Source: Planctomycetaceae bacterium
GTDB lineage: Bacteria; Planctomycetota; Planctomycetia; Pirellulales; Thermoguttaceae
Length of the DNA: 45,676 bases
Assembly (NCBI GenBank): GCA_031274255.1
Contig: JAISQK010000079.1
Coordinates: 1-45,676 of the forward strand
Direction of reading: 5' to 3'
In this document: positions 828 to 30,177 of the stretch, piece by piece
Numbering within the stretch: the first letter of the stretch is position 1
How the letters are laid out: the number at the start of each line of letters is the position of its first letter
The notes under the pieces: generated by a model
Seen by the model: only the letters and a program-made list of their open reading frames with translations
Databases searched by the model: none
What the model was told of the DNA's origin: nothing
Program-made: the position numbers and the translations under genes

Positions 828-865
828 TTTAAAAGGATGCCTCCCGGCCAACAACGCACGTTATC
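828..865 (+). repeat. Dispersed modular repeat, copy R1 (left-end module only)
   Basis: TTTAAAAGGATGCCTCCCGG matches the left end of the larger copies at 6531 and 44738. It is followed by a degenerate AACG/CGTT hairpin. The bases just upstream (ATCCCATTCG) also recur before copy R3. This piece lies between the IS66 end and the stop codon of the gene at 861-2690. Confidence 0.7.
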
Positions 866-2690
866 TGCTGTGTAGAATCACAACGAAACTTTGCACATTG
901 AAATGAAAGGAATCAGGACCGCGTTTTTCGGCGATTTTGGCTTCGACTTCCGGTTCGGAACCGTCGAACTTGTAGGCTTCGTCATTCACCAGCAAAACGT
1001 CATGTTCCCGCTTCAGGTAGCGCATCGGTTTTTCCGTGTACGGGGAAGACGGAACGGCATCACAATATTCCGGCACCAATGCGTCGAATGTGTCGGGATA
1101 GTCTCCGTGTTCCGCGCGGTACGCCGTGAGCGCAAAGGTGATGTCCGCCATACGGATAAGGCATTCCGCCCGTATTTCCGTTCTCATAAACGAAGACATC
1201 ACCGGACTGAACACGCAAAGGAAAAAGTCCGCCGCAACATTTTCACGGTCAAAACCGGTCTCCAGGTTGGTGTTTTGGATGAGTCTTTCCGCCGTTTCCC
1301 GAAGACGCTGTTCGAATCTTTCATAAGCATGGACACGCCGCATAGACAGAGGAATCAGATAAATGTTGTCAAGGTCGTCAAAAAAACCATTGACTCTGCG
1401 GAGAACTTTGTCCCAATCATAATCGTAATCCGGGGCAAGACACTTGGCATAGAGCTGATCCTCAACAAGACGGTCTTCCTCATGGAGTGCTTTCAGTGAC
1501 TCCTCAAAAAGGCTGCGGCTCGTTGCGTAAGCCTGTATGAGCGTCAGTGTTCCGCAGCGTTCGACGGCGAGCCATTTCGGCGGCGCGGGAAACGGTTTGC
1601 CGGTGAAAATCTCCGCAAACTCTTTCCGCTTTTGGAGAATCCATGCCGCGTCTTTTTTCCCTTCGAGATGTCCGAGATAATACGTCACATCCCAGGTTCC
1701 GATTCCTTCCATCGCAATTCCGACAAGATTTTCTACGATAAAAGCGGAATTTCTTCTCATCGCATGACCGATCCGCAGTGTTGCGAACGCACACTCAAAC
1801 GCTTCGCCGTATTCCCCGCGGGCAAAGTGCCATTTTCCCCGCGCGGAGAGATACCGTGCCGTCTGACGTGCGGACTGAATATAGGGAAGCATGGCCTCAC
1901 ACAGCAAAACCTGATTTTCGCCGCTCTCCGCAATAGGATTGTAAAAGTCCGGACGCCTGGAAATTTCAAGGATTTTCGCCGTCATCTCGGTCGTGGATTG
2001 CATCCAGTGATCCAGAAGCGGCAAATCTTCCGCCGTCCAAAGTCCTCTTGTCTTATAATCAAGCTCCTCCAAAATCATCCTGTGAAACTGACTGTCGGCG
2101 AAATCGGAACTGTCGAAGTATTTCCGCGTCTTCTCCAGTTCCTCCTTGCTGATTTTTCCTTCGTTGAACCGGTTTTGCAGCTCCTCCATCTCGGACTTTT
2201 TTTTCGCGTCCAATCGGGCGTCGATTTTTTCTTTCGGGTAATACTTGAGCAGTTCTTGGCAAGGGTCTATTCCGTCCGCACCGGAGCCGCCGGGCGGAGA
2301 AAGGTGTTGCAGCGAACTCAGCGGCGGCGGGGCGTCGAATCCAAGACTTTTCCAGTATTTTTCACGAAACCGTGTTATGGAAGCCGTATGGGAATACGGC
2401 TCTTCTTGTCTCCGAAGAAGAATGATTTCATATTCGCCGGCGGTCAGCGTGAACAATCCGGCCACCTGATTGTTCTCCCGGGTGATTCCCTGCGACATGA
2501 TCCGGTTGATTGCCGTGTAGTAGTCCACTCTGCCGTCGGGAAACTGCGGCCCGGTAAAGTACGTGGTTTCCGGCGAAATCGTCAGTTTCACGGTTTTCTT
2601 CGCCGACTCCTCTTTTGGGGCGGGCTCATCGCTCCATACTGATGTCGCGGAGAGCAAGGCCGTGACGAGGCATAAAAAACGAACGTTCAT
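861..2690 (-). CDS. Secreted hypothetical protein downstream of an ECF sigma factor
   Basis: 609 residues. The start ATG at 2690 has AAAGGA about 9 bases upstream. The N-terminus is a signal peptide (basic Asn-Val-Arg, hydrophobic core, likely cleavage after VWS, about residue 21), so the protein is exported. The body is largely helical and charged with no recognised enzyme motif. A C-terminal block at about 513-560 contains AYRAEHGDYPDTFDALVPEY and then AVPSSPYTEKPMRY. This pattern recurs in planctomycete exported proteins, where it resembles the post-helix part of pseudopilin-like domains. The gene overlaps the upstream membrane-protein gene by 65 bp, placing it third in a sigma factor operon, so it is probably an envelope protein controlled by or linked to that sigma factor. 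The stop codon abuts dispersed repeat R1, so the last few residues may be recent. Function is unknown. Confidence 0.8.
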   Translation of the reverse strand: MNVRFLCLVTALLSATSVWSDEPAPKEESAKKTVKLTISPETTYFTGPQFPDGRVDYYTAINRIMSQGITRENNQVAGLFTLTAGEYEIILLRRQEEPYSHTASITRFREKYWKSLGFDAPPPLSSLQHLSPPGGSGADGIDPCQELLKYYPKEKIDARLDAKKKSEMEELQNRFNEGKISKEELEKTRKYFDSSDFADSQFHRMILEELDYKTRGLWTAEDLPLLDHWMQSTTEMTAKILEISRRPDFYNPIAESGENQVLLCEAMLPYIQSARQTARYLSARGKWHFARGEYGEAFECAFATLRIGHAMRRNSAFIVENLVGIAMEGIGTWDVTYYLGHLEGKKDAAWILQKRKEFAEIFTGKPFPAPPKWLAVERCGTLTLIQAYATSRSLFEESLKALHEEDRLVEDQLYAKCLAPDYDYDWDKVLRRVNGFFDDLDNIYLIPLSMRRVHAYERFEQRLRETAERLIQNTNLETGFDRENVAADFFLCVFSPVMSSFMRTEIRAECLIRMADITFALTAYRAEHGDYPDTFDALVPEYCDAVPSSPYTEKPMRYLKREHDVLLVNDEAYKFDGSEPEVEAKIAEKRGPDSFHFNVQSFVVILHSR

Positions 2691-3195
2691 GGTTTTGTTC
2701 CTTTATAGGTGTTGAGGTTTCCGTGTCGAGATGAATCACGGGGTAATCCGGCGGGACGGCGGGAATCGGTTTTTTGACTTCCATTTCCTCCATCAGCAGG
2801 GCAAGCTGTTTTCGCATGGAGACATTTTCATGCGGTAAAACACGAGGTTTCGCGGCGTGCGGCCCTTGAACGGCCGGCCGGGGAGAAAATCGGGAAGAGA
2901 GTTGCGGGGAAGGTTGCGGAGAGATCCTCCGTGACGGTTCCGCCGGAGGAAAACCATTCCTGTGGCAAAACGCAACGAGGAGAAGCGACACGGCAAGAAT
3001 CGGCACAGCGGCTCCGGTCCAAAGGACCATCTTCCGATAAGGACGGCATTTCGGACGCAACAGTACCGATCGGCGTAACGTTTGGGACGGAAACGGGACG
3101 AGCCGCCGCAATTCCGTTTCAAACGCCTGCCGTTCAGGACTCCATCGTTCAGGATTCCGTTGCTTCTCCTCAGACGGTTTGTTCCTGTCATTCAT
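2626..3195 (-). CDS. Small single-pass membrane protein, possible anti-sigma partner
   Basis: 189 residues from ATG 3195 (an in-frame GTG lies at 3204). The ATG overlaps the end of the sigma factor gene by 8 bp, so the two are translationally coupled. The first 55 or so residues are charged and presumably cytoplasmic. A hydrophobic segment (about 58-80, MVLWTGAAVPILAVSLLLVA) follows, then a Pro/Ser/Arg-rich stretch with SPQPSPQLSSRFSPRP and a hydrophilic tail. Size, topology and position directly after an ECF sigma gene fit an anti-sigma role, but there is no zinc-binding HxxxCxxC anti-sigma motif. The role therefore rests on context only. The 3' end runs 65 bp into the next gene in another frame. 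Confidence 0.7.
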   Translation of the reverse strand: MNDRNKPSEEKQRNPERWSPERQAFETELRRLVPFPSQTLRRSVLLRPKCRPYRKMVLWTGAAVPILAVSLLLVAFCHRNGFPPAEPSRRISPQPSPQLSSRFSPRPAVQGPHAAKPRVLPHENVSMRKQLALLMEEMEVKKPIPAVPPDYPVIHLDTETSTPIKEQNHERSFFMPRHGLALRDISMER

Positions 3196-3688
3196 CGTGA
3201 TCACCGTTTCCTTTCATTAACCTTCGCAAGGCGGCAATTCCTTCTTCGTAACGGCGGAAGACGGTCGTCCTGGGGAGTTCCGTCAGTTCCGCGATTTCCG
3301 TAAAACTCAGATTTCCCCAGATGTGCAGTGTCACCATTTCGCGGAGTTCTCCGTCGAGCAACCGCAGTTTTTCAACCGTATTTTCCGCGTCGAGCTTCGC
3401 CGCCGGATCGGGGAGAAACCACGGGATTGCGGGACGCGACTGTTCCCGAAGCCGCCGCCGTTTTTCGCTCCGCTGCCGGGAAATCGCTCCGTGACGGACC
3501 GTTTTGTACAGCCACGCCACTCCGTTTTTCGGCATGTCCGGTTCACGGGAGAGTTTTAACAGAGCTTCCTGCACGATTTCCTCCGCGGTGTGAAAATCCG
3601 CGTCTGCGAGAAACTGCCGGGCGTAAAGCACGAGCGCGGAATCACACCGCGTCATGATTTCCCGAAGTTCCTCCTGTGAAATGCCCAT
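3188..3688 (-). CDS. ECF-family RNA polymerase sigma factor
   Basis: 166 residues from ATG 3688 (MGISQEEL). The open frame extends to 3757, but a TATAAT-like box lies at 3731-3736 inside that extension, so the shorter form is preferred. Region 2 spans about 12-80 (ALVLYARQFLADADFHTAEE, then WLYKTVRHGAISRQRSEKRR). Region 4 spans about 110-158 and holds a helix-turn-helix (LSFTEIAELTELPRTTVFRR). The product would direct core polymerase to a small regulon. Two downstream genes overlap it and presumably share its transcript. The operon is divergent from the DUF1559 protein at 3881, which could be a target. The ECF subgroup cannot be assigned by eye. Confidence 0.9.
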   Translation of the reverse strand: MGISQEELREIMTRCDSALVLYARQFLADADFHTAEEIVQEALLKLSREPDMPKNGVAWLYKTVRHGAISRQRSEKRRRLREQSRPAIPWFLPDPAAKLDAENTVEKLRLLDGELREMVTLHIWGNLSFTEIAELTELPRTTVFRRYEEGIAALRRLMKGNGDHDE

Positions 3689-3730
3689 CCGGTCTGTCCC
3701 GATTCCCCTGTTGTCCCATGCGTCACACTC

Positions 3731-3736
3731 ATTATA
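3731..3736 (-). promoter_or_regulatory. Putative -10 box of the ECF sigma operon
   Basis: Read on the minus strand this is TATAAT, placing the transcript start near 3724, about 35 bases before ATG 3688. No good -35 hexamer lies 16-18 bases upstream, so an activator or an alternative sigma may be needed. It supports the shorter sigma start. Confidence 0.4.
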
Positions 3737-3784
3737 ACGCCGCCGGACGCGGAGCATTCCGAAAAAAATTTTTTTCCCGGGGAC

Positions 3785-12004: not shown

Positions 12005-12032
12005 ATTATAACGGCAAGGCCGTTTCCTTCAA
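12005..12032 (-). promoter_or_regulatory. Sigma-70-type promoter of thiG-lysA
   Basis: On the minus strand: TTGAAG (12032-12027), a 16-base spacer and TATAAT (12010-12005). Its -35 box overlaps the stop codon of the upstream CAP-domain gene. The start near 11998 gives a leader of about 60 bases before thiG. Confidence 0.55.
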
Positions 12033-15000
12033 GACATCCTCTCCCTTGACATTGTTTCCAGTACGGCGAGGCGTTCAAATTCCGCCATCCAGTCATCGCT
12101 CTGAGTAGGATTTTTTCGGGACGGACGCCACTGTTCCTCCGCGAGAAGAGCCATGAGCCGATCTTCCGTGAACGGATGATCGTCATCGGGAAGTGCCGCA
12201 GTGGAAGGAACAGCCGCCGCAGCAGCAGAAGAAGAAACGGCAGCCGCTTTCCAATAATTGACGAACAAAACCCCGCGGTAATAGACCCTGCTTTGGGAGG
12301 AGGAAATCACGGAATTTTCCGTATTAAGCACCCACGTTTCAGGCACGCTGACGGTGGCCGTCTGCTGCGACGGAATAATCACCATACTGGTAAACCCTTT
12401 GACTTCGTGCAAGTAGGTTCCCGCTTTGTCGGTGACTTTGATATAACCGTCCTCATTGGTGTAAATGTCGTCGCCGCCTGAACCGTTCAGAATGACGGAA
12501 CTGCTTGGACCATCGTTATTGACAGCGATCACATAAGGACAGTTCCATACTTTGTAATACTGATCCGCCTGACGCCGTGTCGCATAAACCGAGTCGATTG
12601 TGATGAGGGAATCGGTTTCACCGTAAAGACAGGCCGTCTCTTTCCCGCCGGCAACGGAAGTCATCGTCACGTCATGGAAAGACAACGCTTCGACATAATA
12701 ACCGCCCCCTTCCAAGGTGACTTTTTCGGAGTAAAGGGAAAAAGTGTCGTCTTCAGGCGTGTCGTAAATGTCCGCCAGATTGTGCCCGCCTTTGGCATCA
12801 ACGAGGATTTCCTCAATATTGTAGGTTTTGTAAACTTTCTGATCCGTGATGAATGTTCCGATGCCGTCTTTGAAAATGAAAATGTCATCGCCGTCTGTTC
12901 CGGTGAAGGAAATGCTGTCCGGCAGATCAGGTGTTCCGTAGAAACTCATCTCCTGAAAACCGGAGACATCCACTTGAATGCCACCGATTTCAATTACGGA
13001 ATTGTCAGGAAGAATAACAATGGGATCGCCGCCTCCGATAATCCTGATGGAGTCCTGAGCATTCGGAAGGAAGCGAATCCATGGGAACTGAGACCAATCG
13101 TAATCCCCCCATTCATTATTAATCCCGATTTTGTGATTATTGAGATCAAGTGTGAATTCGTTTTTCTCTTGATCTCCTTGGATTTCGAGCCAATCTTCAC
13201 TCGTTTTGTAAATCTGCGTCATCTTGAGACGATCCACCGGCAGAATGTTTCCGTCAGCGGAATCCCCCGTCCATTCCACTTTGACCACATAAATCAAACC
13301 CTCCGTAATGTCAAACTCCAAATGCTGATGATTCATGTAAACGGCCGAAGACGCTTGCGGCACCTGAGCGTGAGAACCGAGATAATAGGTGATTTTCACG
13401 CCTGCCGGAAGAGCGTCCATGTAGGCATCCCAGGAAACCCGGCCGGTCGAAGCCGCCTGGAACGAGTAAAGACGCCGAACCCCCTCGGTAAACTCCAGAT
13501 CGGTAAATTCCGCCGTGGAAATCCGTCCCAGGTCAATGATTTTGTCATCTTCGAGAATCGTGCCTGTGACCGAGTCTTTTGCGATTTCGACATTTTCGTA
13601 ATCGTTGATTTGTACGGTCAATGTCTTTTCATCCAGACCATTGGTGTAAAGATAGTCCCCTTTGACTTTGATGACAATTTGAGCGGAAGAATCCCCTTCG
13701 GCAATGGTGAGCGGAGAAGCGGTCACCGGTTCGTAATCCATGTTCACCTGCGCCGTACCGGGAATCACATTAAAGCGGATCGTAATATCCCTTCTTGCCG
13801 GTTCGTCCAGTTCCACGATGAAAATCATTTCCGCCGTATCATCGTCCCCTTCAATCACGCGGACATCTTCAATGGCGGCGATCGGCTGTTTTGACGGATG
13901 GATGCGGATGGTACTCGTGACAATATCGCTGAAATCCTGCTCATCGGAGACGGAGACCTCGACAATCCTGTCCTCAAGCTGACAGCGTTCCCGGGCATTA
14001 TGATAGGAAAGCGTCTTGAGAACCTTGACGTAATCGGCCGTCGGTGCCAGACCGGAAATTGTCAAAACCCCTGTTTCGTTGTGATAATTCCAGGAAAGTG
14101 CCGTTCCTGTGGTGTCAACACTCAGAGATTCGTAGAGTCCGTCGGGAATGTTTGTCAACACCGCTTTCGCCTGATTGAGAAACGGACTGTCCTGATCAAC
14201 AATGACAAGCGTTTCCGGAATGATCCGCACCGGTTCGGAGTTTTCCGTATATCCGCAGAGAGAATCCCCGCCGGACTCCTGACCATTGAGATGGATCTGC
14301 GGCTTTTGATTTTCCGTTTCCTGAGAGCGGAAATCCAGTTTTTCGTTGGAACCGTTGATGGTCACCGTTTTGGTGATCGGTTCGTCAAAGCCTTCGCCCG
14401 AAACCGTCACCGTATAAGTGCCGTTTTCCAGATATTCCTGATAAGCTCCCGCGGTCAGCGTATTGACTTCATAAACGACGACATCCCCCTGTTTTACGGT
14501 GATGTTCATGCCCGGCAGCCCTTCGCCCGCCTGATAAACGCGGTCGCCGTTGGCGTCATCGTAAACCAATCCCATCAGATAGGCCCCGTCGGAAAAAGAG
14601 GATCCGCTGACCGAACCGAAATCCACCGTCACCACCCAGGGACCGAAATTGTTTTTGTCTGTGGAGAGAAGTCCGATTCCGATGTCCGTGAGTTCCGCAT
14701 TCATCACGTTATCACGATGCTCGTGCTTCGGATTACCAAAATCAATGACGAAAAACTGATGAATATAGGAAGCCAGCGTTCCGTAATCGGAATCCGTGAC
14801 ATTGGGAATATGAGCGGAAATGTTTTCCCTGACAAGCAGATTGTCCCCGCTGTTCGGGTTGTAATAGCCGGTGTCGGTGACCCGGTCCTCCAGTTTTTTT
14901 TCAGAAGAAAGTCTATGCCCTTCCTCGACTTTATCAATCATCAGTTGACTGTGAAGAACGGCCGCTTCCGCAAGACTCGGATTCCATGCCAACGGTGCGG

Positions 15001-15304
15001 CCGGTCGAAGTTCTTCCCATTCTTCGAGCAGCTTCGCCGCTTTAGGATAAGAGAGCCACTGATCTTGCAGAATTTTGTTAAACGCAGGATTTCTGGCCGT
15101 CAAATTTTTGTCGTTAATTTCTGAAAAAATACGTCCCAATTCTCCCTGCGGGTCCATCCTCATCTGATTGATCAGCTCCAGAAGCTCCATTTGTTCCGGC
15201 GTGGGATCAAACGGAGTTGCCGAGAGATATTCGCGTGATTCCAACAATTCCATGCGGAGCGGTCTTGTTTCCAAGTGACGTTTGCGCGGAGAGGACTTAC
15301 TCAT
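12029..15304 (-). CDS. Large exported CAP-domain / Calx-beta protein
   Basis: 1091 residues from ATG 15304 (a GTG at 15316 is possible). There is no classical signal peptide; the N-terminus has the planctomycete-style basic segment KSSPRKRHLETRPLRMELLE then SREYLSA, resembling the export leader of giant planctomycete surface proteins. Residues about 35-230 look like a CAP/SCP domain (AAVLHSQLMIDK, GHRLS, ENISAHI, HEHRDNVMNAELTDIGIG). Next comes an SdrD-B/Cna-B-like module (LVYDDANGDRVYQAGEGLPG), then a cadherin-like or unknown stretch, then a Calx-beta domain at about 465-570 (VRVIEGDDDTAEM, DYEPVTASPLTI, TGTILEDD). The C-terminal third is repetitive with short acidic D/G-rich motifs. It ends in an Ala/Ser-rich segment and a Trp/Arg-rich tail. 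The role is probably cell-surface or matrix; CAP chemistry in bacteria is unclear. Confidence 0.8.
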   Translation of the reverse strand: MSKSSPRKRHLETRPLRMELLESREYLSATPFDPTPEQMELLELINQMRMDPQGELGRIFSEINDKNLTARNPAFNKILQDQWLSYPKAAKLLEEWEELRPAAPLAWNPSLAEAAVLHSQLMIDKVEEGHRLSSEKKLEDRVTDTGYYNPNSGDNLLVRENISAHIPNVTDSDYGTLASYIHQFFVIDFGNPKHEHRDNVMNAELTDIGIGLLSTDKNNFGPWVVTVDFGSVSGSSFSDGAYLMGLVYDDANGDRVYQAGEGLPGMNITVKQGDVVVYEVNTLTAGAYQEYLENGTYTVTVSGEGFDEPITKTVTINGSNEKLDFRSQETENQKPQIHLNGQESGGDSLCGYTENSEPVRIIPETLVIVDQDSPFLNQAKAVLTNIPDGLYESLSVDTTGTALSWNYHNETGVLTISGLAPTADYVKVLKTLSYHNARERCQLEDRIVEVSVSDEQDFSDIVTSTIRIHPSKQPIAAIEDVRVIEGDDDTAEMIFIVELDEPARRDITIRFNVIPGTAQVNMDYEPVTASPLTIAEGDSSAQIVIKVKGDYLYTNGLDEKTLTVQINDYENVEIAKDSVTGTILEDDKIIDLGRISTAEFTDLEFTEGVRRLYSFQAASTGRVSWDAYMDALPAGVKITYYLGSHAQVPQASSAVYMNHQHLEFDITEGLIYVVKVEWTGDSADGNILPVDRLKMTQIYKTSEDWLEIQGDQEKNEFTLDLNNHKIGINNEWGDYDWSQFPWIRFLPNAQDSIRIIGGGDPIVILPDNSVIEIGGIQVDVSGFQEMSFYGTPDLPDSISFTGTDGDDIFIFKDGIGTFITDQKVYKTYNIEEILVDAKGGHNLADIYDTPEDDTFSLYSEKVTLEGGGYYVEALSFHDVTMTSVAGGKETACLYGETDSLITIDSVYATRRQADQYYKVWNCPYVIAVNNDGPSSSVILNGSGGDDIYTNEDGYIKVTDKAGTYLHEVKGFTSMVIIPSQQTATVSVPETWVLNTENSVISSSQSRVYYRGVLFVNYWKAAAVSSSAAAAAVPSTAALPDDDHPFTEDRLMALLAEEQWRPSRKNPTQSDDWMAEFERLAVLETMSRERMS

Positions 15305-15622
15305 AACATTTCTCACTGACGTAAAGTAAAAAGAACAGACATAACGGAAAGGACAAAAAACGGTGAGTGAAATGGAAAAGAATACCGGATTGCCAAGTAA
15401 TACCTATTATAACAGGAAATTAGACAGTATATCTACAAAATTGTTCCCAAAAACTCAAAATATTACTCTGTTGGAGAGTGATATGTAAAAATTTTCAAAT
15501 TCTCAAAAATTTATTGCGGCGCAAATGACTTTTGAGGTATTTTATAGTTCCCAAAATTTTGCAATTCTTTCATTGAGAGTGGTGACTCAAATAGAGACAT
15601 GCGTTGTCTTCCGATATGTCTT
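15305..15622. other. AT-rich spacer upstream of the CAP-protein gene
   Basis: No gene seen. A minus-strand TATAAT (plus 15406-15411) lies about 100 bases upstream of ATG 15304 and may be a -10 box, but no convincing -35 is spaced correctly. The remainder of the spacer (15623-15852) carries repeat copy R6. Confidence 0.4.
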
Positions 15623-15852: not shown

Positions 15853-17301
15853 TCATTTTCTTATTGGAATACCGTGATCGGCCAACGGTGTTTTGATTTG
15901 TTCCATTGTGTAAAGGCCGGTGTGCAAAATTCCGGCGATGATCGCCGCACTCACTTCCGTTTTTTCGAAAACTTCCATCAGATGGTCTATGTTTCCCGCC
16001 CCGCCGGACGCCACGACCGGAATACTCACTGTCCGGGCGATCTGTCCGGTGATGTCCAGCTCGAAGCCGATCCGCGTACCGTCACGATCGACGGAGTTGA
16101 CCACAATTTCGCCGACTCCCAAATCCTCACAGCGTTTTGCCCAATCGAGTGCGTCCATGCCGGTTCGTTCACGGAAACCGCGGACGGTGACTTCAAACCC
16201 GCTCGGAAATTTTTCCCTGTCCGGGTTAGAGACGGGGTCCATGCCAAGCACAATGCACTGCCGCCCGAAAGCTTGACTTCCTTGAGCGATAATGCCGGGA
16301 TCGGCGACGGCAAGGGAATTGATGGAAACCTTTTCCGCGCCGGCTTCGAGAACTTCCGCCATGTCGTGGAGTGTCGCAATTCCTCCTCCGACCGCGAACG
16401 GAATGTGAATCGCTTTGGCCGCGTCACGCACCATGCCGATGTCGATTTTACGATGTTCCGCGGAAGCGGTAATGTCGTAAACCACGAGTTCATCGGCACC
16501 TTCGTTGTAATACCGCCGGGCAAGCTCCACAGGATCACCGAGGTCAATGTTGTCCTTGAACTTGACCCCTTTTGTGACGCGGCGGTTGATCACATCAAGA
16601 CACGGCACGATCCGCCGTTTCACCGGACAAACCGCCGCATCCATCCGGCCAGTGACTGGAGCAAAGGACGGTTCTTCCGGCACCGTGCCGTCCCACCGGG
16701 TGAAGTTTTTCAGAATACGGAGTCCGACAGGCCCGGATTTTTCGAGGTGAAACTGCGCCGCCGCCAGATTCTTCCGGCCGATCATTGACGCAAACCGCGT
16801 TCCGGCGTAATCCGTCGTGCCGATGATGTCGTATGGACTTTCCGGCACAGGATAGTAACTGTGGACAAAGTAAAAATCACTCTCGTCCGGCACACCGTTC
16901 AAAATCGGGTGTTTCCGGCACTGTTTCATGGAATTCCAGCCCATGTGCGGAACCTTGAATTGCGAACCGACCGGCTGAAACAGTTTGACCATGCCCGGTA
17001 AAAGCGACAACATCGACGTGCCGCCGTTTTCCTCGGAAAAATGAAGGAGAATTTGCGTGCCGAGACAGATTCCGAGAAACGGGACACCGCGTTGGAGAAC
17101 CTCGTGCAATACCGGCACCAGACCGCGTTCGTTGAGGTTTTGCATCGCCGCGGCCGCAGCTCCAACACCGGGAAAAATCACCCGTGTCGCCTGACGCACC
17201 ACCTCCGGGTCGGACGTGATCACGGCTTCGCAGCCCAGACTTTCCAGAGCCAGTTTCACACTTGTCAGATTACCTGCACCATAATCAATGAGTGTCAGCA
17301 T
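15853..17301 (-). CDS. hisHF: Fused imidazole glycerol phosphate synthase (HisH-HisF)
   Basis: 482 residues, ATG 17301 with CAGGGA about 9 bases upstream. The N-terminal domain (1-205) is a class I glutamine amidotransferase like HisH: DYGAGN, FPGVGA, GICLGTQ with nucleophile Cys79, HMGWN, and QFHLEKSG with His185/Glu187. The C-terminal domain (about 225-482) is HisF: IVPCLDV with catalytic Asp236, DITAS, AVGGGI, the second-Asp region LGMDPV, SVDRDGT and VVASGGAG. Together they convert PRFAR to IGP and AICAR using ammonia from glutamine. Bacteria usually encode two separate subunits; this order and fusion match eukaryotic HIS7. All catalytic residues appear present. It lies 21 bp downstream of pyrB in the same operon; both pathways use glutamine nitrogen or PRPP-derived intermediates. 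Confidence 0.92.
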   Translation of the reverse strand: MLTLIDYGAGNLTSVKLALESLGCEAVITSDPEVVRQATRVIFPGVGAAAAAMQNLNERGLVPVLHEVLQRGVPFLGICLGTQILLHFSEENGGTSMLSLLPGMVKLFQPVGSQFKVPHMGWNSMKQCRKHPILNGVPDESDFYFVHSYYPVPESPYDIIGTTDYAGTRFASMIGRKNLAAAQFHLEKSGPVGLRILKNFTRWDGTVPEEPSFAPVTGRMDAAVCPVKRRIVPCLDVINRRVTKGVKFKDNIDLGDPVELARRYYNEGADELVVYDITASAEHRKIDIGMVRDAAKAIHIPFAVGGGIATLHDMAEVLEAGAEKVSINSLAVADPGIIAQGSQAFGRQCIVLGMDPVSNPDREKFPSGFEVTVRGFRERTGMDALDWAKRCEDLGVGEIVVNSVDRDGTRIGFELDITGQIARTVSIPVVASGGAGNIDHLMEVFEKTEVSAAIIAGILHTGLYTMEQIKTPLADHGIPIRK

Positions 17302-18392: not shown

Positions 18393-21300
18393 TCAGGTAC
18401 GCCGGTGACGGGATTGCCGTCTTGCCGCGTAAAACCACACGAACGCGATCACGCCTGACAAACAGACGGAAAAAGCCAGATCACTCAGCCGTTTTTCCGC
18501 CACCAGTGAAATTCCGCTGACACTCAACCGCTTTTCTGACAACGGCGCAGTGAAAAAATAAACGGTACCGATTTGCGGGATTTCGATGTCCAGGCTTGCC
18601 GACTTCGTGGCCGTCACCGCGGTCATTGACGGGGAAACCGTATCAACCGGAGCGGACTGTGCAGGAACCAATTCGTTGTTCAGTGGAAGTCGTTCCGATT
18701 CCCACAGATCTCCGTTCACCGCGACGGGAGGCTGAAACGAACCGGACATTGAAAGATTCCCCCCTGAGATGCCTCCCGCAGCACCGAATAAACTGGAATC
18801 CTGCCTTCCTAGTTCGTATCCCAATCCCAATCCCAATTCCGGGCTTTTTCCCGCCATGCTGTCCAACAAAATCCCTGACGACACCCTCGCCGCTTCATCG
18901 CTTTGTTGTACCTCTGCGGAACCGCTGCGACTGGTTCTACCGATGCCAGCTGCTATGGCTATGCCGGGACCGGATTGCGGCTGCGACGGACTCGGAGTCA
19001 TGGCCGGAACATTCCTCTCATTACTAACGATCCCATCTTGCGGAACGATCTGACCTTGCGCATAAACGCTCTGCGGCACCTGCGGCAGCGAACTCGGGGG
19101 TGCATAGTATCCTTGCATAAAACTTCCTTGCGGAGATTGCAGAGTCTGCTCCGGCGACAGCGACGACGATTGCCGTGGTATCTGTTGCTGCGGTATCTGT
19201 TGTTGCGGTATTGTCATCGACCACTGCGGATTCGGAACGAGTGCATTTTGAGCGGCCTGTTTTTGCGCATAACGTTCAAGATTCTCCTGCTCCAGCGACG
19301 ACTGCGGCATCTGTTGCGATTGCGGCAGCGGTACAAGGGAGGAACTCTCCGAACTCTGTTTTTGCACGGACAATTTCGAGGCCAACTTTTGATCGCTCAG
19401 TTTTTCCTGATCTTTCAGCGACGACTGCGGTGCTTTCTCTTTGCCGAAAACGGAGCCGCTCTTAAGGTTAAGGTCCGACGACCGCGTTGAAGAAGAGGAA
19501 TCCGTTTTCTTGCCGTCTTCCGACTGTATGACAACATTCCGGCCGCGTGCGTTCTCTTGCGATTCGAACCGCTGCTGCAATTGAAGGCTGTTGCTGTGAA
19601 ACTGCTGCTGTTGTGCTGCCGGTGATGTCCGGGAGAAATTATCCATTTGCGGCGAATTACTCATGGAGGTTCCGTCCGTCTGCGGACTTTCCCGTCCTTG
19701 TGCCTGAACCGGCGAACTTTTAAAAGAAGAGAGGTCTTTCGACAGTCCCCCCAACTGTCGGATATTGCTGAACGCCCGCACTTTTTCGTAAGGATTGCCG
19801 GCTTGCAGCGTCTCTTGCAGTTTGGTGTTGAGTTGGTTTTCGTATTCCGACCTGGTTTCCGCCACGACGGCACTGTCTGTTTTCCGCATGGTGCCGTCGA
19901 AGCGGAACCGGTAATTGTCCGGCAGATAAAGTTTCACATACGACGAACTGACCGGAATGTTCAACACTTCAAGGAACGGAACATCAAGAGAACTCACCCA
20001 GCGGATTTTCCTCATTTTTCCGGCGTACACGATCCGTACAATGTAATCAAGATCGCCGACTTCGGTTTTGACAATCGGAATCCGCACAAAAGAAACACCG
20101 CTCTTGTCAGAAAGATTCCTGACGGGAATGTCCCTGGCGGAAAAAAGCGTCGGTTTGACCGGCTGTCCGAAATCGCCCGACCTGCCGGACTCGCGGAGAT
20201 TCCACTCCGGTGTCGATAGGATCCGCACCACACGGATTTCCGCACCGGCCGGCAGTTTCAAATCAAGGTACTGTTCCGTCTTGTTGTCGATCCGGTAAAT
20301 CTGTTCGGCGGTGTAATCGCCGTTTTCCCCGAGTACGGCCCGCGTTTCCGCAAGTCCGATTTGCGCTCCCGACATTTTGACCGTTTCACGCCGCATCATG
20401 GAAAACGCAAGTTTCGGCGGGACTTCCTTTTCACCGTCCGCCGCGTGACTTACCAGATAGGCTTCCGCCGCACCGGCACCGAGTATTTCCCTTAAACGTC
20501 CCCATTCTTTTTGCTGACGGCTGATCTTCCGCACACCGGCGAGATTTTTCGTATCAACCTGCATTTCGTCGAAACTTCCCGCGTTTTCAAGCACGATATA
20601 CCGGTTGAGTACGTTTCCCGTCAACATTTTCGGAATGGCCGCAAAGTAGGGTTTGCCGGAAATCAATTCACGGTCATTGCGGATCAGAACGCGGAATTCG
20701 TTCATGATCTCGTCCTGTAAATGAAGCGTCACAAGAATGGTGCCATGATCCGTGTCCGTGATTTCCTTCCGCTGCAAAAGCGGTGCGTCAATCCGGGCGT
20801 CGGCCATTTCTTTCGGCAATTCAAACTGCACGGAATGAATTCCGGCGTTTTGAATATTGTAGTCAAGCAGAATCATCTCCTCGATACTCCGGCTGTTCGT
20901 CCTGACATTGGTGATGCTTTCGCACGTGATTTTAGGCATCCGCGGCACCAATGTCAGTTTGGCGGACGGTTTGCCGTCCCTTCCGGACAGACTGAATTCC
21001 TGACGGCGGAGCGGACGGTATTCATTCGCAATCCATCCGCTCATTTGCTCCGGCTCACGAATATAAACCAAATGCGTGTCATGAATGTCCACATCAAACG
21101 ACGGATCAGCCAGTACCGCAAATTGCTGCTGTACCATTCTGAACCGTTCTGTCTGACCGGTTTTGTCACGGATGATCGGCACATCGACCTCTTTTTCCGC
21201 ATCACAGGCAACAGTGCCGATGATATTGAACCGAATGTTCCTCTTGCCAGGAACATTGGCCCACAAAACGGTCAGTTCGGTTTCACCGGATTCCAGCGGC

Positions 21301-24300
21301 TTGGTTGACCATTCCACCGGCGATTCCGACTGCACCGTTTCCAGGCGGAAATCCTTCGGTAAAATCAGGTCTTCATGAAAGAGAGTCCATTCCGGTCTCT
21401 CCGAACGAAACAGATGACTGCACTCCAGTCTTACGAGATGCGGCGAGAGTTTGACAATGTTTTCAGCGGTACGGACGACGGTCAAATCCTTCTGCGTCAC
21501 CGTGAGCGGCAGTTGGTAATTTTCCGACGTAAACCGGAGGGCTCGGAACGGTGTCAATCCGAACGGATTTTCCGCAACGGATGTTTTCACCATTTCTTTC
21601 ACGAGAGAATCACCCGCCGGAGTCTCTTCCTTGTCATTTTGTCTGTCGGGCATATCCGTCATGCTGAGATTCGACGTTTCGCCGATTTTGACCTCAAGCC
21701 GCGGACTGTGCTGAATCGTGATTCGTCCGTGATGCATTGCGGCACCGGCCACACCGACATTCGGCACCGTGATCGTTTGCTGTTTTACGTCGGAAAAATC
21801 CGCATCACTCCTCAATACGAGATGAAATTGATCATTTCCTTCCGTCGGATGCAACAGCTCCACTTCAATCATCGTATCGGTTTGGGAATCGGTTTCCACG
21901 TTTTCCCAGCCGCGGACATTTTCCCCCTTCACGGAGACCACGAGAGATTTTTTCGGAACGCGCAACTGAAAAGACTCGTGTTTTCCGCGGCGGAATGCCA
22001 GTGACAAATCCCAGTCGAGAAGGAGAGCGTCCTCGCGGATATTGAACCGCAGTTCGGAATCGGCGGTCAGACTTTGATCAATTTCCGCCCCGGTCACTTT
22101 CGACCGCCACGACCATCGGAACTCCCCGTTCGGAGCGAGTGCTGTCGCGATCGTTTCATTGGGTTTCGCTGCCAGCCATTTTTGTTGAGCGGCGACATTA
22201 CTGCATCGCAGTTCCATCTGTTCTTCAGGAAGCGTCACGAGGACTTTTTCCGCTGGAAATTTCGCCAGACGTCCCGAAACAAGCCGCCAACCTCCCTGCC
22301 GTTCCGCCTTGAATTTCACGGTGAACACAATCCGGTGTTTTCCCTTGCCGTGAATTTGAACCGCAAACAGACCGTTTTTCGACGGCGTCACGGAGATTTC
22401 CGCGTCACGGTCATCGACTTTCAATCCGGTCAGAATCCCCTGTCCCAGTGCAAGAGGAAAGAGAATCGGCTTGTTGTTAAGGATTTCGATCTCCGCGTCT
22501 CCCGTGATGCTTAAATCCTCGGTCTGTCCGAGGACCGCCCTGTATTCGCCGGAGAGGACGGCGTAATCCGCGGGAGCCTTTTCTTCGGCGGCGGCCTTTT
22601 TTTCAGGATGCACAAGATTCCAAAGTTCCATATATTTCGCATACGGCACAAGCAGCTTCTGATCCGTCCGCGTCAGCAGTTTGGGATGGGGTAAACCGTC
22701 CTCAAGCTGCGGAGCGGCAAGCATGGTTTCGGCGTCATAAAACGCGACGATCACGTCATCAGGAATCCGAATCGGTTTTTCCTCCGATGTTTCCGCGTGA
22801 ACCGGTCCCGATATCCATGTGAGTGTCAGGAACATCATAACGGCGGCGGAAATGTTTTGTGTCTTCCGTTGTTTCATTTTTTGCCAAACTCCGGTGAAAA
22901 GATAAACCGCGAAAACCCAAAATCCCGCTTTGACGGCCTCATCAAAGAGTGAAGCGAAAACATCAAACCGGGGAACAAGCACAAGGAGCGTCCCGCCGGA
23001 CATCACGCTCAGCACGAAAATCATGCGGGTACGGACGCTTGCTTTCCAAAGGAAAAGTCCGGCCAAAAGGACGCTTCCCCAGATGAAATAGAAGCCGAAC
23101 GTGAAGAGTTGCGTGTTCACGGTTCGTACCCGAAGCTGCATTTCACTGCCGCCGATCATCTGGAACTGTTTGTGACGTTGAAGCGGAGAGGCGAGATTCT
23201 GCTGAAACCGCACCTGAACCGGCTGTACGGTTTGAAGCGTCTTGTTCTGATACGGCACGGTTTGCAGCGGTTCGTTCGGTACGGCTTGCGGCACGGCAGA
23301 GGAAACTTCACTGTCATTGATGCCGCTGCGATAACTGCGGCGGTCGGAAGTTTCTTCCGAGCTTCTGTTAAAATTTTGCAGTTTTTTGGCGTCTTCGGAA
23401 TTGGAATCTTCGGTAATAAATCTTCCGTCTTTTTTACCCAATGATTCTTCTGATTCTTCCAACAGAATTTCCGAATCCGAATTCCATTCCGTTTCAGCCG
23501 ACATCTTTATCTTTCGTTTCGACTGCGGCAAATCGGCTGCATAACGGGCCGACTCCCTTGCAGACATAAACGGCGAGAGGAAAATATTGTGAAGATAACG
23601 CATGACGAGCGGTCTCGGCGGTTCGTTTTCAAGCGGTTTGTCCCCAATGCGGACAACCTCATAACCGGGCGGTGCCGTCACGTTCCACACAACACGGGTC
23701 ACCGGCACTTTTTGCCAGATAATGGTTCCCGCTTCCGCGCAGACAAGGGTTGTTGCTTCCGGGGCAAGGTACCTGAAATCATGCTCTCCCGCTTTCTTCG
23801 GTACGAGCAAATCGGGCAGACGGATGTCGGACGAGGCGAAAACCGGTGATGCTCCGCTGCTCTCCGCTGCCGCCCAGACGATTTCAAGCCTGCGCACAAT
23901 ACTGTCCGGTTTCGCCGGAATATCCGCCATGATGCCGTTTCCGTCCTTTTGCGGCTTGATTACGGCGCCATCAAGCGACACCGCCCAGATTTCTTCATTC
24001 CCGTTGAGATCAATCATGAGAAAGGTCGCCCGTGTTTTCAGGTCATACACCGCTTTGGTCACCCGTTTGCCGTTTGCCGCAATTTCCACTTCGCCATACA
24101 CAAGCTGCACCAGGGACGACGGCAATTGAAAATCAGGATTCTGCTTGATGTCCACATGAAGCGGGTTTTCGCGGGTGATTCCCTCATACACACCGAGAAG
24201 CCGCTGACCGGGAATGTAGTGCGACGCGGCCAGTTCTCCGACATCCACCGGACGCAACAGAGAGGGAGAGGCCGTTTGAGAAGGAACGGCTGTTTCATGC

Positions 24301-26531
24301 AGCGAAAGATTCAATTCTTCATGTCCCTCGACGGAAACAAGTCCCGACTGCCACGCCGTCTCTTCGGCAGTGACAAGCGGAAGTTCCTGTGTTGTTTCCG
24401 CTTCCGTTGTCTGTTCAAAACGGACCCCGAGCGTCAAAAGTCCTGACTGCGGACCGGCGAGCTGCACATTCCACTTGCGAAATTCCCTGCCGTCCGCCGC
24501 CGTCACGGGTGTACTGACATACTCTTTGACCTCAAGGCCGTTCAGTCCGAAAATACCGATGTGTTCCGGGGTCTCCGCAGGAAGTAAAAATGAAAGAAAC
24601 TTTGTCCGTGCCTGTTCCACATTGTAATGCAGTTCGTAATTCACCGACATCAATGACGGAGCAAACCGGAAAAACGCGAATGTTCTCGCGGTCAGACGCG
24701 GCAGGGTGCGTGTGATGCAAAGCTCGGTCGAATACGGCTGACTCCAGTACCGAAACGCCATGTCGACGGGAAGTCCCGCGAGAAATTCGGTTCGCTCCTT
24801 GTTATCCAGCGGAATGAGACGGACGTCATTTTCCGACGTGACAAGCATGTCACTGTCCACGGTCACGGCAATCGTGCCGCGGTCGTCCGCCGCGTCGGCA
24901 AGACAAAATCGCGGAAACGGAAATTTCTGCTCGCTCCAGTCGCCAAACCAGCCGGGAGTGTCCCCTTTTGCCTCGAAAAAGACCGGAAAAACCGTCTGCG
25001 GCTCAATCCCGTTGACAACCTTGATTTGAACGGACGTTCCTTTTTGCTCAAACGGAATCATGACATCCTCCTGATCGGTGACCCGTGTGACCGTCCAATT
25101 TTCAGGAACTTCGAGTTTGAGCGTGAACAATTTTTCATGACGCGGCGAAATTTGCAGCAGTCCGCGCAGCGTTTGCTCTTTGTCGCTGAGCGTGAGCACC
25201 TGATGCGAGACGGCGTCGAATGCCGGTTTCGGTTTGAGAAATTCACACACAATACTCCAGTCGCCGGTGTTCGGTGCATACCACGCCGCAACCGTTCGTA
25301 CTGCCGGAGCGTCCGCCGTTGTTTCAAACACTTCCGCGGAAATGGTATTCTGCAAAATCTCCGGTGCTATCGCAATAAGCCGTGTTGCGTCAAGCTTGTG
25401 GACATTCCACTGCGTCTCAAGCAGGAGTCCGAACACCGCGGAATCGCTGCTGACCTCAAGCGGTTTGAATGCCGGAAACGCCCATTCGGAAAGCGTGTCA
25501 TTCGCGGACACCGTATCGAAAAAATGCACCGCTGTCAGATTGACGGAGACGATGCCGCTGACAGGTTCACGGAACCGGACTTCAAGAATCGACTGGTTTT
25601 CACGTTCCGTCACACTCCACTTTGCGAGTTGCGGAGAGACCGCCCCGGTCATTTCAAAACCGCGCGGCACAACAAATTCCGCGGTTTGAACCGGTTGATG
25701 CAGGATGTCGAGAGAAAACGCGGCGTGAAGTTTTTCGTAATGTCCTGTCACCTCGGCAAACTGAACGCTTTGGGAAAGGACGGACTTGAGAATTTGTGTC
25801 CGGTGACTGTTGAGTGTCAATGTCAGATGTTGTGCGTCGCTTTGCGGAAGGAGTTCAAATTTTGTCACACGGGAAGCTCCTTCCCCTTCAACATGACGGC
25901 TCACAATGACCGCACCGTCTTTGAGTTCGACATCTCCCGGTACGACAAGTCTTTCCGCCGTTTTTGGGGCCCGCGGCACACGGAACCGGATTTCCTGCCG
26001 CACCGTATCGACAAGAAGCTGTGATGTCATTTCCAGTTCGAGTGTGTGGCGTCCTTTGCCCCGCAGAAAAAGAGTGTACGGCGCGTAGGGTGCCGGGGTT
26101 TCTTCCTCATGGGGCGAAACACCGAATCGGGCCGGTTCTCCGTCAAGGATTGCGGACTGAACCGCGACGGAATCCAAGTCAAGCGGCAGAGCTTGCCGTT
26201 TGTCCGTCAACGACTCCCACTGAAGGACCGCATGAATTTTCGCCTGTTCCCCTTCGATCGTGACCGTGTAATCACTCGCGAGAAACACCGTCGCAACCGG
26301 AGCGGCGGCATCCGGCGAATCCTGTGTTTCCCGCTGTTGGAGCGATTCGAGTAAAAGTGTTTCAAACTCTTCACGCGGCAGCAGCACACGGTCTTTGCAG
26401 TTTTCAAGCAGCTTTGCCATTTCGGAAGCCGGCACGAAAAGTTCCCGGACAGTGATCTTTTTCGGTTCGTCTTGTGCGTGAAGAGAACATGCCAGCATCA
26501 TCGACAGGACAGTAAAAAACCATTTACGCAT
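18393..26531 (-). CDS. Giant two-module membrane-anchored envelope protein
   Basis: 2712 residues. ATG 26531 has GGAGG 6 bases upstream and overlaps the end of the 1217-residue gene by 8 bp. A signal peptide covers 1-19 (cleavage after LHA). Module 1 starts with an [11 protein letters not shown] motif (about 49-60) and a beta-rich region containing [20 protein letters not shown]. Hydrophobic segments lie at about 1140-1160, 1170-1187, 1200-1216 and 1224-1244. The last reads like a signal peptide ([15 protein letters not shown]) and is followed by a second module with [12 protein letters not shown] (about 1285-1296). This suggests two ancestral genes fused. A Ser/Gln/Pro-rich low-complexity stretch spans about 2264-2630, with [12 protein letters not shown] inside, and a final helix lies near 2684-2704. 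No enzyme motif is visible; the paralogous 1217-residue gene lies upstream. Probably a structural or assembly protein of the envelope; function unknown. Confidence 0.85.
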
Positions 26532-29500
26532 GAGGACCTCCTTCCGTGTTTTCAGAACTCGTTGTCACTTCAGCGGATGTCTCTGTTTTTCTCCGCGTCA
26601 ATGGTGTCGTCATGATGGTTTTGAACGTACTCCAACCGCAGACGAGCGACCGGATGATCCAGAGAATCACCGTCAGACCAATCGCCCACCGTACACCGGA
26701 AACAACACCGGCGGTAAACATCAATGTCGGAGCAATCAGCACAAGCAGGGCGTAAAGTATTATGACACTGAACACGACAATTCCGCGAATCCGCCACTTA
26801 TAGAACATCAGGAGAATTCCTCCGGTCAGAAGCAGGAGAAACATCACCACGTTAATGAAGCTGATTTTCCGCAACCGTATGGTGAAAAGTCCGGCATTGT
26901 CGGAATCCGGCTGAATTGTCGAAAAGAGATAAGGGCTTCCGTCCACCGGAAAATTCCGCCAGGAAGGAGACGAACGTTGTTCAAGCTCTTGCGTCAACAC
27001 CCCCGTCACCATATCAACACCCGGACTGTTACTGATGCCCACCGTATCGCTCTGAAAGGTGGGAAACATGTGAAAATTCTTCGAGCAATTCCCTTGGTAG
27101 GAAGTGAGAACATACTCCTCCGGCACATAAACCGCGACGTACACGTGCTGAATCGCCGGTTCATCAGGAAAAACAGGAATGGCAATCGTTTCACGCCGTG
27201 AGAGGTGTTTCCGTTCCGGCGGAGCGTCTTTCTTTTTCTGTGTGTACCGGATTTCGAGCAAAAACGGTTTGTCGGGAAGCGTCGAGGTCAACGGAATCAA
27301 ATACTGTCCCGCGGCATCGGTTTCCAGCGTCACCGGCACATCATTGATTCGCGGCTCAACGTCAAAGGAAGAATCCGGCGGCAAAATGACCGGCAGCCGT
27401 TGTTTGACGCTTTGAATCCGGTAGAGTGCCTGCACCGATTGCGTGTTCGCCCGTGTCAGCACATGACGGATCAAAGCGTATTCAATACTTGCCCGTTTGA
27501 CTTCATGCCATTCATACCGCATGGCACTGAGGGAAAGTTTCCAATCCTCGTGAAATTCAAATCCGTATGCCGCATCCGCAATACGGTCCTCGGCTTCCAC
27601 ATCATGCTGCGGGTCAATCTGCCGCAGTCCGTTGTTGACGTCCGATGTGGAGATGTCAACGGTTCCGGTTTTGGCCAGCAGGATTTGTCCCCAGGAACGG
27701 AACACCTTTTGCGGAATCAGCCGAGGAACCGAAATTTCAACGCTTTTCCCGTCAAGAAGCTGCGGAATCTGTTTTTCCCACGTCAGAATGATGGTTCCTG
27801 TTCCTTGCAAATTGGTGTCATTGGCAAAGTTCCACGCCTCATATCCTTCGGCCACATCTTCCGGCTGCGGCGAAAGAACGGTATCGCGGAAGTCTTTGGT
27901 TTGATTACGCAGGTCTTTGGAAATTTCTTTCGGCACATCAATCCGCAATGACGGGACACCGCTATACAAGACGTTATAGGCGATTTTGTCGGAAAAGCGG
28001 ACCACTCCGTCGTCAATTCTCGCGGTGAGAAGCTGTTTGATCGTCACCTGCGGTGTCCGCCGCATCGCCTGAAGCGAAAGTTCCGGCTGTTCTCCGGCAA
28101 ACACATAGGCAAGATTCCCCAAAATCGGCCTCGCAATCCATTTGTCCGCCAACTGTTCACGCGGCACATTCTGCATTCCGGTGAACGCGGTCGGGGTCAC
28201 CCGTAAACTGTCGGGCGACTCCAGAACGAGAATCCCTTCCTTTTGTTCGATCCCTTCAGAAGCAACAACCGGCACAATGATCTTGAGATCAAACGCTTTT
28301 TCCGTTTCTTTTTGCTGTGCGTCACGATTTTGCGGTGGTTGCGGGGGAAGGGGTTGTGAATAAAACCGTACCGCAACTCCGACAATACCGATGGCTTTTC
28401 GGGCAAGATTCACTGTCAGCCGTTTCCTTTTCGGTTTTCCCTCTTCGGTCGGCAGATCGGAAAGCTGATACCCGTCAATGACAAGGGACGACACTTTGGT
28501 CGGCTGCTGCGGGGAGGAACCGGATTGAGATTGACGATTTTCCGGCGGTGCGGTTCTGCCCAATAAATTTTGCACATTAATGGAGGTGTCTCCGCTCACG
28601 TTCATGACATTCAATCCCTCCGGAACATCATAAAACAATTGAAAAACGCCTGCTTTTTCAATTTGATAAGCATTCACCATCTGAACGGAATAGTCTCCGT
28701 CTGAAGAAAGCGATATACGTGTTTGTGTTTTTGCAAAAATTTGCGGACGCTCTTTTTCGACCGCCAGTTCCAACCCATACACCGCGGCGGAAAGTCTGTA
28801 TGCCAAACCGGTTGCGCGAATTTTAAGATTTTGCGGCAGTTCCGCCGGATCAATCTGGACCAAACCGGACATTTTCTTCTGCTCACAAACAAGCCCCGGT
28901 GATGTATCGACCGCCAATGTTCCTTGATGCGCACCGACACCAATGATTTTGATTCGCGGTACATCTATCGAAAAATGGTCTGTCTCAGGAATGAATTTTT
29001 CCAGGTCAATCAGCAACGACTGTTTTGATTTCGCCGGCTCAAAGAGTTCCACTTGAATCACTTGCGTCTTTTCCCCTTGTGAAATTTCCCAAGAGCGGAT
29101 GTTGTCATCCACAACTCCGACGACTTTTTGATCTTCCGGCACTTCAATGGCAAGTTTGTCAAGTTGAGCGCGGCTGATAGAATAGACAATATGCACACGA
29201 TTGCGTATCACCCCTTCTTCAACGGTGACCCGCTGTTGTGACTGAACATTGGCGAGCGCTTCAAGTCCTTTGGCACCTTCCGCTTTCGGTGTCCAACCGA
29301 TCTGCACGTTGGGAGCGGAACCGGCGAATGCCCGAAAAATCGTTCCTTCCGTTCCGTTTTCAGGCGGAAATTCACTGGCGGCAATCATCGGCGCAAAATC
29401 GACTTTAACCCCTGTGTCCGGCATCCGAAATTCCCAACGGCTCAAAGGGGCCTGCGGCACACGCAACGACACCGAATTCCGGCCCGGTGATTTTTCATAA

Positions 29501-30177
29501 CTTTTTGCATAACAGAGCGTTAGCTCTCTGCGAACAGGAGCGTCCTTTTTTCGTTCCACCAGAAAAGAATATCCGTTTTGATTGTCGCCCAATATTTGAG
29601 CCGGTTCACCGCCCAGTATGGCTTCTGTGATCGCAACTCCCTGCAACTGAAGGGGTAACGTATGCCATCCCGGTTCAAGCAGATCGAATTTTACCGTTGC
29701 GGTCACTTCCACCAAATCGCCGTTGATTTTGGCAATGCTGTCTGTTTCCGTAATCATTGCAGGAATCGGAGCTTTTTCCGGTTCAGGAGCCGGTTGGGGA
29801 GTCTCAAGACGCTTGGCGGCGTCCCACAATTTACGAAATTCCGCATAAGGCAAAAACACGCCGCGTCCTTCCGATTCAAACGCCCCGCGAAGTTTTTCAT
29901 ACGGCACATAAACCGTCTGTTCTTTCTCAATGACGGCAACCGGTTTGGAGACCGCCGGTTCCGGTTTCGGAGTTTTTTCTACTGCCGGTTTTTCTTCGGT
30001 AACAGGGGAAGCCTCCTCCGTTCCATTTTCTGTAACATTTTGATTTTCCACGAGTTGCGTCTCCTCCTGAGGAACAGGTTCCGATTCCTGAGCGTAGAGT
30101 GTTCTCGCCACAGAAAACAACATCAAAAACATCGCCATGAGCGGCAATACCATTTTTCGGTTGTTGGAAAAAAACAT
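26524..30177 (-). CDS. Large membrane-anchored envelope protein, paralogous module
   Basis: 1217 residues; ATG 30177 has AGGAG 7 bases upstream. A signal peptide covers about 1-29 (cleavage after LYA). A Pro/Glu/Val-rich linker follows, then two copies of a VPY-type motif: VYVPYEKLRGAF and, at about 106-118, VFLPYAEFRKLW. Next is the beta-rich module with LEPGWHTLPLQLQGVAITEA and LGGEPAQ, clearly related in pattern to both halves of the 2712-residue protein. Further on is DDNIRSWEISQGE, comparable to [13 protein letters not shown] there. The C-terminus has a cluster of hydrophobic helices (about 1104-1180) and a short basic/Ser/Thr tail, so the bulk is outside the cytoplasm. First gene of a two-gene operon. 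No known function; members appear planctomycete-specific from memory, which should be tested. Confidence 0.85.
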   Translation of the reverse strand: MFFSNNRKMVLPLMAMFLMLFSVARTLYAQESEPVPQEETQLVENQNVTENGTEEASPVTEEKPAVEKTPKPEPAVSKPVAVIEKEQTVYVPYEKLRGAFESEGRGVFLPYAEFRKLWDAAKRLETPQPAPEPEKAPIPAMITETDSIAKINGDLVEVTATVKFDLLEPGWHTLPLQLQGVAITEAILGGEPAQILGDNQNGYSFLVERKKDAPVRRELTLCYAKSYEKSPGRNSVSLRVPQAPLSRWEFRMPDTGVKVDFAPMIAASEFPPENGTEGTIFRAFAGSAPNVQIGWTPKAEGAKGLEALANVQSQQRVTVEEGVIRNRVHIVYSISRAQLDKLAIEVPEDQKVVGVVDDNIRSWEISQGEKTQVIQVELFEPAKSKQSLLIDLEKFIPETDHFSIDVPRIKIIGVGAHQGTLAVDTSPGLVCEQKKMSGLVQIDPAELPQNLKIRATGLAYRLSAAVYGLELAVEKERPQIFAKTQTRISLSSDGDYSVQMVNAYQIEKAGVFQLFYDVPEGLNVMNVSGDTSINVQNLLGRTAPPENRQSQSGSSPQQPTKVSSLVIDGYQLSDLPTEEGKPKRKRLTVNLARKAIGIVGVAVRFYSQPLPPQPPQNRDAQQKETEKAFDLKIIVPVVASEGIEQKEGILVLESPDSLRVTPTAFTGMQNVPREQLADKWIARPILGNLAYVFAGEQPELSLQAMRRTPQVTIKQLLTARIDDGVVRFSDKIAYNVLYSGVPSLRIDVPKEISKDLRNQTKDFRDTVLSPQPEDVAEGYEAWNFANDTNLQGTGTIILTWEKQIPQLLDGKSVEISVPRLIPQKVFRSWGQILLAKTGTVDISTSDVNNGLRQIDPQHDVEAEDRIADAAYGFEFHEDWKLSLSAMRYEWHEVKRASIEYALIRHVLTRANTQSVQALYRIQSVKQRLPVILPPDSSFDVEPRINDVPVTLETDAAGQYLIPLTSTLPDKPFLLEIRYTQKKKDAPPERKHLSRRETIAIPVFPDEPAIQHVYVAVYVPEEYVLTSYQGNCSKNFHMFPTFQSDTVGISNSPGVDMVTGVLTQELEQRSSPSWRNFPVDGSPYLFSTIQPDSDNAGLFTIRLRKISFINVVMFLLLLTGGILLMFYKWRIRGIVVFSVIILYALLVLIAPTLMFTAGVVSGVRWAIGLTVILWIIRSLVCGWSTFKTIMTTPLTRRKTETSAEVTTSSENTEGGPHA

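Follow-up and report, generated by a model that had tools for sequence, protein, structure and literature searches.

The window (the whole stretch of 45,676 nucleotides analysed here) contains two giant minus-strand genes that overlap by 8 bp and are probably two translation products of one transcription unit (Table 1). The upstream product, P0002, has a single module (S), and the downstream product, P0001, has two (BN and BC), arranged in the order signal, BN ectodomain, three helices, signal-peptide-like segment, BC ectodomain, low-complexity linker, and one terminal helix. The BC juxtamembrane motif was found again in unfused BC genes. The longest open reading frame (ORF) of pyrB overlaps the end of P0001 (window 18393-18438); pyrB probably begins at a site further inside this frame, and it is thus treated as a same-strand neighbour rather than a conserved partner. 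Elsewhere on the minus strand, the window encodes a 482-aa protein that is an apparent HisH-HisF fusion (15853-17301; GATase 4-200, His_biosynth 230-464), an arrangement known from eukaryotic HIS7; a 1095-aa protein matching CAP, CarboxypepD_reg, and Calx-beta domains (12029-15316); and a tight cluster (861-3757) of a 609-aa protein without a Pfam match, a 192-aa ORF, and an ECF-sigma-like gene that matches the sigma factor of a related locus (L166) at E 4e-9.

Table 1. Features of the S and BN-BC genes (window coordinates in nucleotides; residues numbered in the encoded protein).
Feature	Residues	Coordinates	Strand	Description and basis
S protein P0002	1217 aa	26524..30177	-	Signal peptide, ~1070-aa beta ectodomain, three C-terminal membrane helices, short tail
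S N-terminal signal peptide		30091..30177	-	Predicted cleavage after ARTLYA, residue 29; by eye from sequence
S first M1-aminopeptidase-N-terminal-type beta-sandwich	137-297	29287..29769	-	VIA Z ~14, rmsd 3.4 Å over 158 residues (LTA4H)
S three membrane helices	1105-1189	26611..26865	-	Model helices 1026-1046, 1049-1069, 1071-1110, and hydropathy
Fused BN-BC protein P0001	2712 aa	18393..26531	-	Start within the final 8 bp of S
BN ectodomain	20-1010	23502..26474	-	hhalign to S, 879 columns, E 1.4e-75
BN-terminal three membrane helices	1140-1222	22866..23114	-	Model m032e948cec1b helices 11-34, 37-56, 61-93
Predicted internal signal peptide and basic flank	1224-1246	22794..22862	-	Signal peptidase I predicted to cut after A1246; 32/41 fused homologues have an SPase-type motif
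BC ectodomain	1247-2320	19572..22793	-	Tandem M1N-type beta-sandwiches; profile alignment and model
Low-complexity Q/S/P-rich linker	2321-2640	18612..19571	-	Sequence
BC juxtamembrane strand pair, single C-terminal membrane helix, and basic tail	2682-2704 (helix)	18420..18623	-	Sequence, hydropathy

S, BN, and BC are full-length homologues. By pairwise blastp, S matches BN (E 7e-8) and BC (E 1e-10), and the BN-BC comparison is not significant. With module profiles compiled from 53 S and 41 fused homologues, all three pairs align at probability 100 over 860-880 columns (S-BN E 1.4e-75; S-BC E 2e-78; BN-BC E 4e-71), and 30 column-shuffled controls gave a probability below 1. This HHpred-type comparison, proposed in the first-pass annotation of the sequence, bears out its claim of three related modules, one in P0002 and two in P0001. 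The VPY-type and LPL-type motifs that it described are found where it had placed them in S (TVYVPYEKL and VFLPYAEFRKLW, and LPLQLQGVAI) and in BC; the BN version is weaker (ELFVPASEM). Sub-optimal profile alignments also occur at shifted registers, a sign that the modules may themselves consist of repeated domains in a chain.

The annotation would have given way to a known family already covering both proteins; none was found in Pfam or NCBIfam, where nothing scored over cut-off for P0001, P0002, or diverse relatives. A sequence search of S against solved structures (PDB) gave no match, and PADLOC gave no usable match (best E 0.028). The S/BN/BC family is absent from the curated family libraries searched, and no paper on it, or on planctomycete polyproteins, was found in the open-access literature.

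AlphaFold2 models were obtained for S (residues 80-1190; pLDDT 86.7) and BC (P0001 residues 1130-2320; pLDDT 79.6), with low pTM values (0.48 and 0.39, respectively) that make the relative placement of the domains unreliable. Structure prediction had been named as a check on the modules, and both models give tandem beta-sandwiches of the type found at the N-terminus of M1 aminopeptidases (M1N-type), with three helices predicted after S and after BN. The first domain of S aligns with the M1 N-terminal beta-sandwich (Table 1), and the BC model yields three successive M1N-type matches (191-349, 357-551, and 552-734). Ost1/ribophorin I is the best solved two-domain match for both models. The first two domains of S match it with a VIA Z of 14.6 at an rmsd of 16 Å, so that the pair does not superpose on Ost1 as one body; the BC model matches with a VIA Z of 13.1 and 9 Å over 313 residues. 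The Ost1-type tandem M1N arrangement is thus recovered over two domains and ~310 residues (Z 11-15), as a similarity at the level of fold. The M1 catalytic motifs HExxH and GxMEN are absent from P0001 and P0002; Peptidase_M1_N (PF17900) has no match in this genome (8 of 14 control genomes were positive); and PF04597 (Ost1/ribophorin I) has none in this genome at E up to 10, nor in P0001 or P0002. These results indicate a shared fold, not family membership.

Far from being peculiar to this genome, the S/BN-BC pair is found widely across Planctomycetota and Verrucomicrobiota. A search with the S alignment recovered S-type modules in 123 of 392 Planctomycetota genomes sampled across the phylum and in 48 of 241 Verrucomicrobiota genomes, and a scan of GTDB contigs gave 76 named loci, mostly from planctomycetes and some from Verrucomicrobia (organism names are those of the database records and may be wrong). 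Many genomes, including members of the same family, had no match; although many of the relatives are incomplete draft MAGs, the set is probably not universal. In the compared loci S comes first, followed by BN and BC, with the larger gene on the same strand as S and less than 100 bp away in 84 of 85 adjacent pairs; 4- or 8-bp overlaps are common, and larger overlaps are inflated by the use of the longest possible ORF starts in relatives. The survey of gene neighbourhoods that the first-pass annotation had called for therefore places S directly before BN-BC and offers no other widely shared neighbour as a functional clue, since neighbour clustering found no gene family besides the pair in more than 7 of 80 loci.

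A second, divergent type of pair (type II) also exists. This same genome has one outside the window (L135, G000:C201:27-11083), made up of a 1195-aa S-type protein and a partner of 2490 aa; the partner, too, contains an internal signal-like segment (LLILFLPSLLVA/EED, the slash marking the putative cut here and below). Of 11 type II loci, 5 (L142, L143, L146, L147, and L048) have a gene that by eye resembles inositol monophosphatase (SuhB) immediately before the pair, which may reflect inheritance only. Separately, Verrucomicrobiota-side two-module relatives at five loci lie directly downstream of a protein with zf-HC2 and/or VWA plus YfbK_C domains (confirmed by Pfam in L158, L165, and L166; added by blastp in L157 and L164). 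Certain BN proteins on the Verrucomicrobiota side have additional segments, by eye secretin-N0/STN-like, that follow the chain of beta-sandwiches (L121:13407-22226, L129:9783-15689, L159:6169-10569, and L163:8598-13292).

BN and BC are separate genes in at least four genomes. A groundwater planctomycete (L120) has three separate genes for proteins of 1128, 1237, and 1138 aa, and BN and BC are also apart in three loci from the Verrucomicrobiota-side searches (L129, L159, and L163); in L120 and L129, each of the separate genes encodes a signal-like N-terminus and membrane segments at the end. In a tree of 79 modules, built by a quick method and with some long branches, S and BC each form one clade (99% SH-aLRT), and the BN modules group together with two changes needed, because the N-modules of type II pairs fall inside the BN group. 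S, BN, and BC each include both phyla, and so the triplication either predates the split of the phyla or moved between them. In another Verrucomicrobiota clade, with two-module proteins of 2.1-2.3 kaa, the N and C modules are each other's relatives near S, and these proteins thus look like the outcome of an independent duplication. On the tree of concatenated modules, the fused or separate state needs at least three changes, forced by the starred branches; this is easiest if both forms yield the same mature proteins, equal function of the two forms being our assumption. The proposal that P0001 is a fusion of two ancestral, paralogous units is upheld by the profiles, the genomes with unfused BN and BC, the module tree, and these repeated changes of state.

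At the junction, P0001 has a hydrophobic segment (residues 1232-1246), preceded by a basic stretch (KMKQRKTQ) and the three membrane helices, and BC starts at ~1250; this agrees with the earlier description of a cluster of hydrophobic helices ending in a signal-peptide-like segment. A signal peptidase (SPase)-type site, scored as [AVST]xA/[QEDAKSG], is present at the junction in 32 of 41 fused homologues, comparable with their true N-terminal signals (30/41) and more frequent than in the preceding membrane segments (32/110) or the C-terminal ones (13/68); the Fisher P for junction versus preceding segments is 8e-8. The junction segment matches N-terminal signals in hydrophobicity (P 0.56) and length (P 0.77) and differs in both from the preceding helices (P 1e-4 and 0.004, respectively), being less hydrophobic; all of these P values make the evidence look stronger than it is, because the 41 sequences share ancestry and are frequently rich in alanine. 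AxA-type sites are kept while the sequence of the hydrophobic core changes, and several of the nine homologues that lack the strict motif end in a near-canonical manner (e.g., TLWA/QS or PALS/QE). All ten type II partners inspected by eye have A or G as the last residue of the corresponding segment, with Q or E next, but not every one of them has a small residue at -3. With a cruder signal-peptide matrix derived from the S proteins, the junction came first among internal sites in only 20 of 41 homologues, and a different position was preferred in P0001 of the window; this matrix is too crude for ranking within single proteins. An internal translation start for BC was also considered and is unlikely, given that ATG, the only start codon counted, occurs at the junction in only 6 of 41 homologues.

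We infer that residues 1224-1246 of P0001 are a retained Sec signal peptide, an identification that is well supported, and the site pattern makes it quite probable that signal peptidase I cleaves the chain at this position. The alternative is that the junction is an uncleaved signal-anchor acting as a fourth membrane helix, in which case P0001 would be one 300-kDa protein whose two ectodomains are linked by a four-helix hairpin. A short helix is indeed modelled at the junction, with low model confidence in the BC model, and the strict motif is missing from the nine homologues noted above; against this, the AxA-type sites persist while the hydrophobic core turns over, the segment is less hydrophobic than the other helices, and fused and separate states interchange. 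An uncleaved anchor is unlikely. Since the internal segment appears to be a retained and probably cleaved signal peptide, P0001 is probably a precursor, most likely a polyprotein that is split into two membrane proteins. Accordingly, of the first-pass description of a pair of giant envelope proteins, the paralogy and the fusion stand, and the 2712-aa product is probably not one giant protein.

Our proposal is that S, BN, and BC are three paralogous, membrane-anchored envelope proteins. During export of P0001, the BN domain would pass out first, the three helices that follow it would bring the chain back to the cytoplasm, and the internal signal would then restart export, so that BC goes out. 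A cut by signal peptidase I after A1246 would release BN (three membrane helices) and BC (one membrane helix) in equal amounts, with S supplied from the coupled upstream gene. The three would assemble in one complex with very large ectodomains in the periplasm (or paryphoplasm), and this complex might serve as a non-catalytic scaffold or client-binding platform, as does Ost1/ribophorin I beside the Sec translocon. We hold this explanation as a whole to be somewhat probable. Confidence is high for the anatomy and homology and low for the specific role: by analogy, S, BN, and BC may form a single inner-membrane-anchored, periplasm-facing complex of this kind, a weak suggestion that draws on fold resemblance and gene order, and a shared fold does not show function. 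The broader reading, of a widespread PVC complex of three paralogous Ost1-like beta-sandwich chains, two of them normally from a precursor split by signal peptidase I and subject to repeated fusion or fission with the signal kept, we regard as evenly balanced.

A serious rival to the scaffold is an envelope sensor, in which the ectodomains would detect a signal or ligand and relay it to an ECF sigma factor via an anti-sigma protein. In one Verrucomicrobiota clade a two-module relative adjoins the zf-HC2/VWA/YfbK_C protein, which in turn adjoins an ECF sigma factor in L158, L165, and L166; this arrangement looks like a sigma/anti-sigma/envelope-protein operon, and by eye a secretin-N0/STN-like segment is common to some verrucomicrobial BN proteins and one VWA protein (L165). 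That clade is, however, a separate branch near S in the module tree, and in the Planctomycetota loci tested the pairs have no VWA gene of this kind beside them; a sensory role is unlikely. A role as surface structures (an adhesin or an S-layer-like coat), in which the chain of beta-sandwiches would form a stalk comparable to that of integrin alpha chains, is more improbable still. Foldseek ranks integrin alpha ectodomains high and with low E, but the alignments are loose (TM-score ~0.12-0.14, rmsd 25-33 Å), and the matches to integrin and complement were discounted as a loose likeness among all-beta folds; in addition, multi-helix anchors (in S and BN) and basic C-terminal tails point to residence in the cytoplasmic membrane, and inspection by eye revealed no outer-surface anchor.

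The envelope of Planctomycetota is unusual, and many of their essential genes lack an assigned function; among the results given for TraDIS in Planctopirus limnophila are 108 essential, phylum-specific unknowns (PMC10632474). The S/BN-BC locus adds an ancient operon of ~12 kb that lies outside the curated family libraries, for which the Ost1-like fold is a first mechanistic lead. If P0001 is cut at its internal signal, many planctomycete proteins of 2,500-2,900 aa would each be two proteins, with consequences for proteomics, topology, and localisation work, and a testable rule would follow, namely to scan for signal peptides inside proteins as well as at their N-termini. The natural series of fused and separate forms allows direct experiment.

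Among known systems, the M1 zinc aminopeptidases (LTA4H, PepN, and TAF2) share the fold of their N-terminal domain with the repeated domain of S and BC. The membrane-coat-like proteins of Gemmata are likewise large, PVC-typical, and membrane-linked, but those proteins combine a beta-propeller with an alpha-solenoid, whereas S and BC are modelled as beta-sandwich chains with membrane helices and no solenoid is predicted. Ost1/ribophorin I resembles S and BC in having two tandem M1N-type beta-sandwiches on the trans side of the membrane and a C-terminal helix anchor; it differs in its shorter domain chain and in its single C-terminal helix (as in BC only, S and BN having three). Ost1 is itself a subunit of the eukaryotic oligosaccharyltransferase; according to a review, it has two lumenal beta domains that resemble each other, and it may keep the glycosylated peptide from slipping back towards the active site (PMC7226087). 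As for a bacterial polyprotein processed by signal peptidase, BN-BC has a conserved, predicted internal Sec signal with a signal peptidase I motif, and its two halves, BN and BC, occur as separate genes elsewhere; if the proposal is true, it would be a standing natural case of such polyproteins. A parallel is Bradyrhizobium fbcH, whose single translation product contains cytochromes b and c1 and is cut between them at an internal signal peptide, a cleavage that is experimentally known. Both systems place two membrane proteins in one chain with an internal signal peptide; the proteins are unrelated, and in BN-BC the cleavage is a prediction and the arrangement extends over two phyla, with fusion or fission having been repeated.
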